DNA of 24,416 nucleotides, from the IMG/VR virus record IMGVR_UViG_3300046818_000011, positions 1 through 24,416 of that record; one strand, 5' to 3'. The stretch comes from a virus. This document shows positions 19,117 through 24,188 of this stretch, one piece after another; positions within the stretch are counted from its first letter, which is position 1, and each line of letters opens with the position of its first letter. The translations under genes and the position numbers were made by a program. The notes beneath the pieces were generated by a model. It ran no database searches. It was not told the origin of the DNA and saw only the letters and a list, made by a program, of their open reading frames with translations.

Positions 19117-21170
19117 CTAGAAGCGGTAGAGAACGCGGGACTTGCGCTGCTGACTGGTGGAGGCCACGCCGCCGGCGAGTGCGTCGATGCGGCACTGCCA
19201 GGCGAGGATCGCGGCGACGGCGGCGTCGATCTTGTGTGGGGAATCGGGGTGAGCCTTGGCGATCTGGATACCGGAGCGCCCAGGGCGGCGGCGGGCGTTG
19301 AGCACGTGCCGGGTCAGCACCGAGCCGCCGTCGTGGGTGAGATTCTTGTGCACGATCGCCGAGTGCAGCTGTTCGGTGGCGCGCACGGACTTGAGCGTGT
19401 TGTTGCCGCCCATCCACCATTCGATGGGATGGTCACGGGTGGACTGGACCTTCAGCCGGTCACCGTAGGCGGCTTCCCATTCGGCCACGAAGCTGCGCCA
19501 GTCCGAAGCGGGGTCGGCATAGAACCCCACCACGTGGTAGCGGCGGCAGGTCTCCGCGATCACCGCGGACACTTCCTGGGTCGGCACCCACCAGTCGTCG
19601 CCCAAGAGCCCGTCGGGCTGTTCCCAACATTCGATCAGGAACAGGTGCCCGTCCTCGACCCGGCAGCCCACCAGGGCGGTGGCGTCGGTGACGCCGCGGT
19701 TGCGGTGCCGTGAGCCGTCGAAGCCGAGCACGATCACGTCGCGGTCGGCCACCACTCTCAAGGGATCGGCACAGCCCGCCCATTCGGTCTGCGAGAGCCA
19801 GGAATCCGAAGCGTGGGTGATCTGGTTGAGGAAGTCGGCCCGCGCGGTCTGCGGATCGATGTCGGGGTCCCAGATCTCCGCGACGATCCGGTCCAGGTCC
19901 ACCCAGCCCTGCGGCTGTGCGGAGTCGCCGTAGACGAAGGACAGTCCGGCCAGCAGCGACTCGCGGTCGGTCATGTCCGTGTTCGGCGGGGCCTCGCGGT
20001 GGTCGTAGAGCAGGCCGTCGTCGCGGGCACGACCCTCGATCAGGGCCTTGTAGTACTCGGCGGACGCTTCCGCCACCGAGCCCATGCCGGGGATGAACGC
20101 GTTCGGCGACTCGATGGTGGACCCACCGAGCTTCGCGGCGTTGATCCGCATGGTCTCGGCCATCCGGATACCGCCGTTGGACTTGGTCCATTCTTCGGTG
20201 TTGTGGGTCAGGTGACCGCCTGGGCCGGCAGCGAAGAGATGGTCGTCGGCATCGACGGCGATGCACCGGACGCCGACGCGAGGGACTGGTTCGATGGCGG
20301 TGATGGCGATCCATCCCAGCCTCGGCGGGGCGATCGGGATGCGGAAGGTCCGCTCGTCTCGATACATCTCGCCAGTCGTGCGGATCGCGGAAGGCGAGCC
20401 CCATACGACGCTCTGCCACAGGTGGCCCTCGGACGCCACGATCGATGTGTCGTCCGCGAACGTGACCCGGAAGCAGTCGTGCTCAATCGACACTGGCTTG
20501 GCCGCGGTGACCGTCGTCGGCCCGTCCGAGCCGAGCACTAGATCCCCTGTGGACAGGGCACCCATCGTCGTCCAGCCGCCTGGCGTCGGGATCGGCGTGT
20601 CCAACGCGAGTGCCTGGTCCAGGATCGCGAAGACGGGCTTGTTGCCCTTAATGCTGGACGCCGAGCTGGTGACCGGCTCAATCTTGCCGCGGGGCAGGTT
20701 GACGAACGTGCCCAGCGGTTCCAGTCCGGGATAATTGTCTACAACCGGCCCAGAGAGCATTTCCAGCAGCGGCTGCCACGCGTTCTGAGTTTGAGTTTCA
20801 GATACGGCCGCGAGTTTCACGAATGGCGTGCGCACCGTGGACCACGGTTTACCAACTGGTTGACCGTCGGCGTTCCAGCCGTCGAACAGGACTGGTCCCA
20901 TGGCTTCGGCGATACCGATGGCGGCGAGAAAAGGTGACTTGCCATTCAACCCCAGCCGCGAGGCCGGGAGATCACCCCCCGCCGGATTTTGCGGCGTCCG
21001 GTACGCGGATCGAGGGCATAGAAGCGCAGGATGAACTCGGCCTGCTCGCGGGTGGGAATGAACGGCTCGTACTCCGCACGATCCGGTGCGGCCAGGTTGT
21101 CCACGATCCAGTCGATGACCTCCCACCCGAGAGTGGGCATCTCGCCGGGCTCGGAAGGGTGCCAGGGCAA
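19117..21170 (-). CDS. terL: Terminase large subunit, frameshifted and intein-containing
   Basis: The packaging ATPase and nuclease is spread over two frames. From TTG 21168-21170 (AAGGGG upstream) the first frame reads LPWHPSEPGEMPTLGWEV to RRGVISRPRGWG and stops at TGA 20946-20948. The second frame (-1) continues with NGKSPFLAA and runs to 19117. Relatives have RPRGWGKSP without a break, so the Walker A loop is hit by a net 8-nt insertion. A -1 slip at GGT-TGA would give G-W-G-L-N-G-K-S. Walker B is FAILDQ/TEEW, interrupted after Gln by a 138-residue intein. The C-terminal nuclease has Asp in LGFDGSRHRN, ADPASDW and HKIDAA. Without the intein the joined protein would be about 546 residues, a usual length. 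It may be non-functional as written. Confidence 0.85.
20200..20613 (-). other. Class 3 mini-intein in terminase
   Basis: A 138-residue insertion sits between LDQ and TEEW of terminase. It begins ALALDTPIPTPGGW (Ala at position 1 instead of Cys or Ser), has EGHLW (His64, Trp66), then VRCIAVDADDHLFAAG with Cys117, and ends HLTHN before Thr of the extein. Trp in block B, Cys in block F and Thr before His-Asn form the Trp-Cys-Thr set of class 3 inteins, which use the block F Cys as the first nucleophile (established family knowledge). The short distance between blocks B and F leaves no room for a homing endonuclease, so it is a mini-intein. Splicing would restore the Walker B region exactly. It can only be made if the upstream frame break is bypassed. 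Confidence 0.88.
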
Positions 21171-21261
21171 AGTTCACCCCTTCGGTGTTTAACGCTGGAC
21201 GCGTTCCGAGCGATCTAGGGGTAACCAAGCAACCCGGAACCCTCAGCAAGGGAGATCAACA
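21171..21261. promoter_or_regulatory. Divergent intergenic region, terminase / plus-strand block
   Basis: These 91 bases separate the minus-strand terminase start from the plus-strand block, so they must hold at least one promoter unless the block is read from far away. I see an inverted pair GTTCCG (21203-21208) and CGGAAC (21235-21240), and no convincing -35/-10 pair on either strand. The AAGGGG of terminase and the AAGGGAG of the first plus-strand gene mark the two ends. Confidence 0.5.
21236..21254 (+). promoter_or_regulatory. Leader element copy 1, hairpin with ribosome binding site
   Basis: GGAACCCTCAGCAAGGGAG precedes the first plus-strand gene and almost repeats at 22683-22702. CCCT and AGGG can pair around CAGCA, which places the AGGGAG ribosome binding site in a weak stem. 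The start codon follows seven bases later. Confidence 0.6.
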
Positions 21262-21735
21262 GTGAGCAACGTCTTGGCAATCGCATCCGTGAGCGGGATG
21301 GTGCTCCTCGTAGCGCTGTCCATGTTCTCTGGCGTCCAGGATGCGGCTCGCGGATACACGAGCACAGCACGGCTCCCGAAAGTTCATGACGGCATTGCAG
21401 GAACCACCACTGAGGACACGCGCGTGCCCCTGCAACACTTCGCCGCGGCGGTCGCGAAACACGAGGTGGCAGTCGGGAAGCTCGACGACTCGCGGCAGAG
21501 GCTCGCTGCGGCGCAGGCACGGCGGCAAGGCGGTCCCGTCGTGGACTACAGGACTGCCAGCGTGGCTACCCAGGTTGTGCCGACCCGTCCATCTGTCCTC
21601 AAACCGTTCGAGGCGTACTCCACCTGCCCGGACGGGCACTACGGCGTGCACCAGCTACGTCGCGTCGATGAGCGCTCGCTGGAACGGGCCTGCTTCTGGG
21701 ACGGCTGCGGGCAGACCTGGCGGGAACAGCCGTGA
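21262..21735 (+). CDS. Membrane-anchored protein with C-terminal Cys/His motif
   Basis: First gene of the plus-strand block, starting at GTG with AAGGGAG upstream. The 157-residue product has an N-terminal hydrophobic helix (about residues 4-22), a polar linker, a coiled region around residues 57-88 (AVAKHEVAVGKLDDSRQRL), and a C-terminal Cys/His unit: CPDGHYGVH (122-130), then C144, DGC149 and TWREQP. The next gene ends with nearly the same unit, so they are paralogues in tandem. The Cys/His spacing suggests a small metal-binding (probably zinc) fold. Its stop overlaps the next GTG. I do not recognise a characterised family. Confidence 0.78.
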   Translation: MSNVLAIASVSGMVLLVALSMFSGVQDAARGYTSTARLPKVHDGIAGTTTEDTRVPLQHFAAAVAKHEVAVGKLDDSRQRLAAAQARRQGGPVVDYRTASVATQVVPTRPSVLKPFEAYSTCPDGHYGVHQLRRVDERSLERACFWDGCGQTWREQP

Positions 21736-22088
21736 CGACTTCCGCCGATAACCCCAACGATGAGGCCCAGCAGCGTTTCGCTGCGGCGGAAAGGCATGCC
21801 AAGAAGGCGCAGACCCGCTTCGAGCAGGCAGAGGCTCGCCTTCACGCTGCAATACACGAGGGTGGGGCGTCCTTCGACCAGGCGCTTGCCGAATTCTCAC
21901 AAGCGAGCAACGAGCAAATCATGACACGCCAGGAGGTCCGACACGCCCAGCCGTTCACAGCGGTTGCCCAATGCCCAGACGGGCACTGGGGCGTGCACCT
22001 GATATACCGCGACAACGAGGACGACCGCCAAGTGTACCGACAGTGCACACACGACGGTTGCGAGCAGTGCTGGCGGCAGGCCCGTTAG
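21732..22088 (+). CDS. Soluble coiled-coil protein with C-terminal Cys/His motif
   Basis: The GTG start overlaps the upstream stop (GTGA), giving 118 residues. The first two thirds are a predicted helix or coiled-coil (RFAAAERHAKKAQTRFEQ and DQALAEFSQ). The end carries CPDGHWGVH (81-89), C105, HDGC110 and C113-W-R, the same pattern as the preceding protein but without its membrane helix and with one more Cys. It might pair with the anchored paralogue. Its TAG shares one base with the next GTG. Function unknown. Confidence 0.78.
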   Translation: MTTSADNPNDEAQQRFAAAERHAKKAQTRFEQAEARLHAAIHEGGASFDQALAEFSQASNEQIMTRQEVRHAQPFTAVAQCPDGHWGVHLIYRDNEDDRQVYRQCTHDGCEQCWRQAR

Positions 22089-22657
22089 TGAACGCTGCGA
22101 AGACGCTCTTGATGTTGGCTGCCGCGCTGGTCCTCGCGACCGGCTGCACGGCGATGGACGCGGGCCGTGCCGATCCAGTCCAGTCCAGCCTTCCGGTCGA
22201 GGACTCCTCGTCCCCGATGCCCGCAGTCGGCACGTGTCACGTGCGCAACGAGGGTGGCCAAGTGCTGCCAGATCCGGGCTGTACACCCGGCGCGCTCAAC
22301 CCGGACGTCACCCAGGACAACATCACTACGACGATCTGTCAGTCGGGCTGGACCGACACGGTGCGTCCCCCAGTGTCGGTGACGAACCAGTGGAAGGCCG
22401 CCTCAGCCCGCTCCTACGGCCTCAGTCCCCAGGTCAAAGGGGAGTATGACCACCTCGTTGCGCTGGAGCTGGGGGGAGCCCCGCTGGACCCGCGCAACCT
22501 GTGGATGGAGCTAGGCACGATCCCCAACCCGAAGGACGCGGTGGAGGGCACGCTAAAGCGTGCGGTCTGTGCCCATCGGATCACGCTCGCCGCCGCGCAG
22601 AACGCGATCGCGGCCGACTGGTCCACGGCCCTGCACGTCACTGGAGTGCGGCCCTAG
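22088..22657 (+). CDS. Probable lipoprotein with HNH-like nuclease motif
   Basis: GTG at 22088-22090 overlaps the upstream TAG (TAGTG). The 189-residue product starts with a signal peptide (AAKTLLMLAAALVLATGC) whose Cys20 could be lipidated, although the -3 residue is Ala, a slightly weak lipobox. Four further Cys (50, 65, 84, 161) may form disulfides outside the cell. Residues 119-140 carry EYDHLVALELGG and then PRNLWME, a D-H...N arrangement seen in secreted HNH-like proteins, followed by KDAVEGTLKRAVC and AQNAIAADW, conserved in the same proteins. It is likely a surface-attached nuclease-like protein; activity is not certain. A longer frame upstream lies inside the preceding gene. Confidence 0.8.
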   Translation: MNAAKTLLMLAAALVLATGCTAMDAGRADPVQSSLPVEDSSSPMPAVGTCHVRNEGGQVLPDPGCTPGALNPDVTQDNITTTICQSGWTDTVRPPVSVTNQWKAASARSYGLSPQVKGEYDHLVALELGGAPLDPRNLWMELGTIPNPKDAVEGTLKRAVCAHRITLAAAQNAIAADWSTALHVTGVRP

Positions 22658-22682
22658 ACGTTGCCCGCAGTTCGTTTAAGCT

Positions 22683-22702
22683 GGAAGCCCCCAGCAAGGG
22701 AG
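22683..22702 (+). promoter_or_regulatory. Leader element copy 2
   Basis: GGAAGCCCCCAGCAAGGGAG repeats the element at 21236-21254, including an exact 11-base CAGCAAGGGAG. It fills most of the 56-base gap before the fourth plus-strand gene, the only real gap inside the block besides the 10 bases before the HigA-like gene. The adjacent GGGAGCGCTTCCC is a near-palindrome that extends over the ribosome binding site. Confidence 0.6.
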
Positions 22703-22713
22703 CGCTTCCCCCC

Positions 22714-22983
22714 ATGGACGAAGACCTGATCGCCCTGCACGACGGCCGCGTATTGACCACCCACCCGCCAGAGGCTTGCGCCGGGCAGCCCTGCTGTATC
22801 CACAACCCCTCGAAGCACCCGCTGGACACCGCGCCGCTGTACTGGCGTAGCGATGTCTGGCTGATGGAGCGCACCTGCCCGCACGGCATCGGGCATCCCG
22901 ATCCGGACTCGGTCGCCTACCTGGAGCGAATCACCGGCGACGACGGCTGGGCGGTGCACGGCTGCGACGGGTGCTGCCAATGA
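22714..22983 (+). CDS. Cys-rich small protein, 89 aa
   Basis: ATG at 22714 follows an AAGGGAG site with an 11-base spacing. The product begins MDEDLIALHDGRVLTTHPPE and has seven cysteines in two groups: CAGQPCCIHNPSKHPL (22-37) and TCPHGIGHPDPDS (54-66) with a terminal HGCDGCC (82-88). The sequence layout suggests a metal-binding fold and is often present as a hypothetical protein in actinobacterial phages. Its C-P-H-G...G-C-D-G-C end is distantly like the CPDGH...DGC units upstream. The ATGA overlap with the next gene shows coupling. Function unknown. Confidence 0.8.
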   Translation: MDEDLIALHDGRVLTTHPPEACAGQPCCIHNPSKHPLDTAPLYWRSDVWLMERTCPHGIGHPDPDSVAYLERITGDDGWAVHGCDGCCQ

Positions 22984-23252
22984 CCACAGAGGACATTGAG
23001 CAGGCCGACGACTACCCCGGGGGCTGGTTCGGCGAGTCCTGGGGAGCGCCAGTGTGCGAGGAAGCCCGGCGCCGCGAGACGCCCATCGGCGAGCCCTGTT
23101 TCGACTGCGGCGTGCCGATCATCGAGGACGACCAGGGGATGCTGATACCGCACATCTTCGCCGAGGGACAGTGGCGTCTGACGGCAACGCACCGTACCTG
23201 CTTCCTGCGGCAGATCATCGGGATAGGACTCGACGCGACGGAGTCGCCATGA
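22980..23252 (+). CDS. Small zinc-finger-like protein, 90 aa
   Basis: The ATG overlaps the previous TGA (ATGA) and its own TGA overlaps the next ATG. The product begins MTTEDIEQADDYPGGWFG and carries CFDCG (C40, C43) with H71-x-x-C74 (THRTC), a C-x2-C...H-x2-C set fitting one zinc site. The rest is mixed, with a short C-terminal helix (FLRQIIGIGL). Similar small proteins occur in actinobacterial phages without known function. It is not clearly a DNA-binding protein: there is no basic helix next to the metal site. Confidence 0.78.
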   Translation: MTTEDIEQADDYPGGWFGESWGAPVCEEARRRETPIGEPCFDCGVPIIEDDQGMLIPHIFAEGQWRLTATHRTCFLRQIIGIGLDATESP

Positions 23253-23620
23253 GCTACGCCGAGAAGGCGCAGGCGCACCGCCAGGAGCATCTGGCCCGCG
23301 CCGAGCGGACCGAGGAGTTCGCCCGTCGCTTCTACGCCGACGACCCGGACAGCCGCGAGATGGTGGAACGGATGGCCCGCTGGGACCGGCGGCGGGCCAG
23401 GAAGCCGTACTGGCTGGTGGTAATCGAGAAAGCGCCCGGTCACTGGTCGGCCCCATTGCTCTGGGCGGCCTTCCTGTGGATCTACTACTGGGCCAGCGGC
23501 GCGCTGGACAGCTGGTTCATCTGGTGCCTCGGCATTGTGGTAACGGCCCTGCTCGTCGCGATGAGCGTCGTGCTGCGGAGGGTGGCTCTCAAGCGGCGTC
23601 CCGGGGCCGAGAAGCGGTGA
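23249..23620 (+). CDS. Two-helix membrane protein, 123 aa
   Basis: The ATG overlaps the previous stop. The N-terminal half is a charged cytoplasmic helix (EKAQAHRQEHLARAERTEEF, then RWDRRRARK), followed by two membrane helices (about residues 66-84 and 89-109) joined by a short loop, and a basic tail ending RRPGAEKR. By the positive-inside rule both ends should be in the cytoplasm. With the lipoprotein and the anchored protein it gives this block three envelope-directed products. No family is recognised. Confidence 0.8.
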   Translation: MSYAEKAQAHRQEHLARAERTEEFARRFYADDPDSREMVERMARWDRRRARKPYWLVVIEKAPGHWSAPLLWAAFLWIYYWASGALDSWFIWCLGIVVTALLVAMSVVLRRVALKRRPGAEKR

Positions 23621-23630
23621 TCCTCTGCCA

Positions 23631-23894
23631 ATGACCAACGAGATGCCCGTGCATCCCGGCGAGGTGATCGGCGACGAGATCGACGCGGCCGAGGGGGTTC
23701 GCGCCCAGCGGCAGATCGCGCTCCGGATGGGCGTCTCCGAGAAGCACCTCTGCCAGCTGCTCGCCGGACGGGTCCGCCTGTCGGCACAGATGGCGCTGCG
23801 CGTAGAGGACGCCCTGGGTATCTCGGCCGAGCTGCTGATGGTCCTCCAGGTCCGGTACGACCTGGCCCTCCTCCGTGCTGGCCAGTCCGCTTGA
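23631..23894 (+). CDS. HigA-like XRE-family regulator without visible toxin partner
   Basis: An 87-residue protein beginning MTNEMPVHPGEVIGDEID, the HPGE start of HigA-type antitoxins. A helix-turn-helix lies at about residues 27-48 (RQIALRMGVSEKHLCQLLAG), followed by LSAQMALRVEDALGISAELL and a VRYDLALL end, typical of the family. HigA proteins bind DNA and usually neutralise a HigB RelE-like toxin encoded next to them. The adjacent gene is a membrane protein, so this is either an orphan or a regulator of its own block, which is the simpler reading. ATG at 23631 has no strong ribosome binding site; it starts 10 bases after the previous stop. It ends 15 bases from the convergent HNH gene. Confidence 0.88.
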   Translation: MTNEMPVHPGEVIGDEIDAAEGVRAQRQIALRMGVSEKHLCQLLAGRVRLSAQMALRVEDALGISAELLMVLQVRYDLALLRAGQSA

Positions 23895-23909
23895 GGCCGG
23901 AAAGCGCTC

Positions 23910-24188
23910 TCAACGCAGCCCCGGGTGAGCTTCCCGCTCGCGGTGCAGCGGGGCCGGGCGGGGCCGCTGGGCATGGTTCTTGGCCGCATTGCAGTCTGAA
24001 CAGGCCGCCTGCAAATTGGCCAGGGAGTGATCGTCGCCGGGGACGATGTGATCCGCCTCGGTCGCGAGGCCGGTGCAGCAGGGCAGGCGAAGCTGGCAGA
24101 CAAAGCCATCCCGCTCAAGAATCGCCGTCCGCAGGCGCTTCCATCCCGGGGGGAGCCGGGAAGACCGCGTCGAACCTTCCCAGGCCAT
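23910..24188 (-). CDS. HNH endonuclease, packaging-associated type
   Basis: ATG at 24186-24188 with GGGAGA upstream gives a 92-residue protein. Residues 14-30 (PGWKRLRTAILERDGFVC) and C31, C37/C38, then ATEADHIVPGDDHSLANLQ (D46-H47, N58) and C63-SD-C66-N67-AAK form a standard HNH fold with a zinc site made by the two Cys pairs. The last catalytic position is Asn rather than His, an accepted HNN variant. Small HNH enzymes of this type stand next to terminase in many siphoviruses and assist DNA cleavage at packaging (family knowledge). Here a 2.6 kb block lies between it and terminase. It ends in a basic tail. Confidence 0.9.
   Translation of the reverse strand: MAWEGSTRSSRLPPGWKRLRTAILERDGFVCQLRLPCCTGLATEADHIVPGDDHSLANLQAACSDCNAAKNHAQRPRPAPLHREREAHPGLR

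Follow-up and report, generated by a model that had tools for sequence, protein, structure and literature searches.

The large terminase subunit (TerL) gene of the virus record analysed here very probably carries a class 3 mini-intein of the TerL1-e type, that is, one of the class 3 inteins found at the Walker B site of TerL (Kelley et al., 2016; PMC5050341). Sequence comparison and a structure model suggest that this element derives from a full-length LAGLIDADG class 3 intein at the same LDQ/TEEW site of an actinophage-type TerL, by deletion of the endonuclease, and that it would splice by the Cys117 route. In this 24.4-kb record (24,416 nucleotides, hereafter the window) the terminase and portal genes both lie on the minus strand, with TerL extending from about position 21170 down to 19117. 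The relatives of this TerL are proteins of phages of Actinobacteria, among them the Streptomyces phages VWB and SF1/SF3, Gordonia phages, Rhodococcus ReT1v and Mycobacterium Cornie. An N-terminal piece of TerL (20946-21170, minus strand; phrog_9 terminase, E 6e-15) is in another frame and ends as RPRGWG-stop at Walker A, where relatives continue as GWGKS. The remainder is formed by the N-extein (20614-20946, minus strand), which covers the ATPase domain, starting at the lysine of Walker A and ending at the LDQ with the Walker B aspartate (66-77% in tblastn to many phage terminases that have no intein; phrog_19179 and phrog_9), by the intein itself (20200-20613, minus strand) and by the C-extein (19117-20199, minus strand), which starts at Thr+1 (TEEW) and includes the nuclease domain (PF20441 TerL_nuclease, E 1.2e-6; phrog_9, E 7e-42).

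Translation of the minus strand at 20200-20613, a segment that the earlier note had delimited correctly while leaving the strand unstated, gave 138 residues that begin with ALALDTPIPTPGGW and end with LTHN. The segment is preceded by KGNKPVFAILDQ and followed by TEEWTKSNGGIR, so that the C-terminal flank reads TEEWTKSNGG. In about 20 intein-less relatives the flanks are contiguous with a gap of 0, nearly all of them reading LDQTEEW or MDQTEEW; the insertion is thus exactly 414 nucleotides long, it interrupts the terminase at the Walker B aspartate as had been proposed, and the glutamine after this aspartate is native to the terminase subfamily. Position 1 is Ala rather than Cys, Ser or Thr, as expected of class 3, and Trp66, Cys117 and Thr136 occupy positions B:12, F:4 and G:5 in blocks B, F and G, forming the WCT signature that the earlier note had recognised. 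These signature residues are invariant or nearly so (99-100%) across 106 relatives. The segment is an in-frame insertion absent from orthologues and ends in THN (Thr136, His137, Asn138) followed by Thr+1, as an intein should, and the 138 residues hold no homing endonuclease domain, as a mini-intein should. Because Pfam and NCBIfam gave no usable match to the 138-residue segment, its relatives were collected by tblastn and with PHROGs. The match to a solved class 3 intein (E 6e-24), together with 126 loci carrying the same type of element, excludes a chance resemblance.

A sequence search of the PDB matched the 138 residues over their full length to the class 3 mini-intein of Mycobacterium smegmatis DnaB (6bs8, E 6e-24), and further matches were the DnaB mini-inteins 6rix/6riy. 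An AlphaFold model built on an alignment of 24 sequences had a mean pLDDT of 97 and the same fold as the M. smegmatis intein; when it was used as a Foldseek query, class 3 DnaB inteins came out on top (6bs8/6rix, E about 1e-12). The Hedgehog/intein fold is thus predicted with high confidence. In M. smegmatis DnaB-1 the catalytic residues are His65, Trp67, Cys118, Thr137 and Asn139 (PMC5222942; PMC6195587), and these align with His64, Trp66, Cys117, Thr136 and Asn138 of the window intein. The alignment that had been suggested as a check accordingly places Trp66 and Cys117 in blocks B and F, and the numbering is off by one because the window intein misses one residue after Gly31. The two inteins share size (139 residues in DnaB-1), fold, WCT triplet and the cysteine known as a redox partner (Cys48 there, Cys47 here), but DnaB-1 interrupts the DnaB helicase at its P-loop, is followed by Ser+1 and is only about 43% identical to the window intein. 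Cys48 of DnaBi1, which pairs with the catalytic cysteine as its redox partner, was termed non-conserved (PMC6195587). Among 106 aligned class 3 inteins, the position of Cys47 (20473-20475 in the window) is Cys in 95%.

Phage, IMG/VR and bacterial genome loci yielded class 3 inteins of the same type, hosted by terminases, DnaB and other ATPases. Gaia gp2 of a mycobacteriophage, a TerL1-e intein that spliced in a reporter (PMC5050341), is inserted at the same junction as the window intein, which reads LNE/S there and LDQ/T here; it belongs to class 3 as well and has a homologous splicing domain (about 50% identity), but is 341 residues long against 138 residues without an endonuclease. Closer still are the inteins of four IMG/VR contigs (L115-L118), of 332-336 residues, in terminases of the same subfamily. 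They lie exactly at DQ/TEEW (DQ/TESW in L118), are 62-70% identical to the window intein over the aligned residues and carry LAGLIDADG motifs (YLLGLWLGDG and GLMDADG in L115, for example). Unlike in the window, their host frame is open across intein and terminase (890 residues in L115). When these inteins were aligned with that of the window, about 195 missing residues, including the LAGLIDADG region, fell between Arg98 and Trp101, which bears out the earlier reading that no homing endonuclease is present. Another prophage terminase (L009/L010) has, like the window, a 138-residue class 3 mini-intein without endonuclease at the same TerL site; since its host belongs to a different subfamily (DE/TH), its identity to the window intein is 44% and its lineage is separate, its endonuclease was probably lost independently. 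Mini-inteins also occur elsewhere. In a different phage protein, a terminase-like ATPase (L012, 746-1198; L013, 1199-1651), a class 3 mini-intein of 151 residues follows the GNGK of Walker A and groups with a 362-residue intein at the same GNGK/SP site (L017). A Marinobacter terminase gpA (plasmid NZ_CP045368.1, 21607-22026) contains a segment of about 140 residues that resembles a class 3 mini-intein.

A tree built quickly from 103 splicing domains, on few columns, gathered all e-site inteins of terminases into one group (SH-aLRT 81), inside which the window intein joined those of L115-L118 (SH-aLRT 94). Support for its exact sister is modest. Insertion at the Walker B site of TerL and grouping with the e-site inteins both point to membership of the TerL1-e lineage. 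In the terminase tree, which was built more carefully and where intein-bearing terminases sit on long branches and caution is needed, the window lies beside the intein-less L125 (97/97), the intein carriers are scattered and at least six changes of intein state are required; a single clade of the window and L115-L118 terminases was rejected (p-AU 0.0018). The disagreement between the intein and terminase trees argues for past horizontal spread at the Walker B site. As the closest same-site relatives also carry an internal LAGLIDADG region, we infer that spread at this site was driven by the endonuclease and that the endonuclease was lost on the lineage of the window. The view that an element of this kind depends on vertical inheritance or on another nuclease therefore fits the current copy, which has no endonuclease, but not its lineage, which was not always vertical.

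The intein would thus have arisen when a deletion between blocks B and F removed the endonuclease, of about 195 residues, and it would now be passed on vertically or travel along with recombining DNA. By analogy with class 3 inteins in the literature, Cys117 would attack the Gln-Ala1 bond to give a branched intermediate at block F, the acyl group would move to Thr+1, Asn138 would cyclise with the help of His137, and the exteins would be ligated as LDQTEEW. An unspliced insert directly after the Walker B aspartate would be expected to block ATP hydrolysis, so that catalysis should need splicing.

Several features bear on the state of the window copy. Over the N part of the window and L115 inteins, changes at the three codon positions numbered 18, 19 and 54 (third positions, 54 of 91), an excess compatible with purifying selection for the greater part of their history. 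The corresponding estimates (dN 0.25, dS 1.6) are rough, as dS is near saturation, and refer to all of the divergence separating the window from L115 rather than to the window's own branch. The window intein departs from conserved positions in 5 of 38 columns, as against 3-6 in its sister inteins, and strong decay was rejected on this count. Two substitutions are unusual, Gly55 to Asp (Gly in 103 of 106) and Pro114 to Gly (Pro in 101 of 106), and together with the residue lost after Gly31 they could weaken splicing.

The host gene is interrupted upstream of the intein, as had been seen before. Alignment with 15 relatives located the break to eight extra nucleotides (TGAATGGC on the minus strand) at plus-strand positions 20941-20948, inside the Walker A codons, a region where other terminase inteins (TerL1-a and TerL1-b) insert. 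None of the 15 aligned relatives has this insert, and nearly all read GWGKS. The extra nucleotides generate a stop codon, TGA, which overlaps with a TTG start of the downstream frame. Among the IMG/VR contigs searched, which may not include the window's own record, no second one with this 8-nucleotide insertion or with identical intein DNA was found. Because TerL from 20946 to 19117, intein included, is open and without a stop, the break is either a recent lesion or an assembly error. Unless it is an assembly error, splicing could act on a truncated product only.

The region upstream of TerL also deviates from that of its relatives. TerS, the small terminase gene, adjoins TerL in nearly all of them, and none was detected in the window (region 21171-23909, best E 0.74). 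A block of plus-strand ORFs (21262-23894) separates TerL from an HNH gene; it contains an XRE/HigA-like antitoxin homologue (23631-23894, phrog_1381) and, at 21262-22088, two neighbouring ORFs with similar endings (CPDGH..GVH...CGQTW and CEQCW) that look like tandem paralogues. As to whether the block is a simple insertion, flanking repeats were sought and none was convincing.

The broken Walker A and the missing TerS raise the possibility that the element is a decaying class 3 intein, no longer able to splice, in a terminase gene that is itself dead and belongs to a defective prophage. The substitutions at the near-invariant Gly55 and Pro114 point the same way, and the class 3 intein pseudogene of Arth_1007, where Cys F:4 and His B:10 are both missing, provides a precedent (PMC3196547). 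Unlike in Arth_1007, however, all catalytic residues are intact in the window; moreover, the intein and the remaining TerL are open, departures from conserved positions stay within the range of the sister inteins, and the portal and other late genes examined in the window are apparently intact. We regard this explanation as unlikely, although it deserves some weight. The overlap of TGA and TTG allows a quite different reading, in which the terminase is made as two pieces split at Walker A and the intein was kept after endonuclease loss because delayed splicing, possibly redox-gated through Cys47-Cys117, times assembly of the packaging ATPase. Such a regulated, split and spliced terminase seems to us very improbable.

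Nor do the other two readings fare better than the mini-intein with a lost endonuclease. The insertion shares its reading frame with the terminase downstream, which would agree with a natural terminase domain, but some 20 close relatives lack exactly the inserted segment and none was found to carry it as a domain, the same element occurs in DnaB and many other proteins, and the solved homologues are inteins; the empty sites already refute this idea, which we consider virtually without prospect. The earlier note had also conceived of the HNH gene (23910-24188; a phage HNH, best family phrog_333, E 2e-28) as a partner that mobilises the intein in trans by collaborative homing. The gene lies about 3 kb upstream and the intein has no nuclease of its own, both of which would suit such a role, yet at least 16 relatives without an intein have homologues of this HNH (36-48% identity) on the upstream side of TerL. 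Since these homologues precede TerL genes that have no intein, the HNH gene is a standard packaging-region gene with no support for a partnership with the intein, and mobilisation in trans appears highly unlikely.

We conclude that the window intein is a well-supported further example of the known TerL1-e family and involves no unexpected mechanism. Within a single terminase subfamily, one and the same site is found in three states, with an endonuclease-bearing intein (L115-L118), with an intein devoid of endonuclease (the window) and empty (L125 and others). This series supports, for class 3 inteins, the view of a homing cycle of gain, endonuclease loss and erosion. In addition, the window offers a splicing domain of 138 residues placed at the Walker B acid, a candidate block on ATPase activity.
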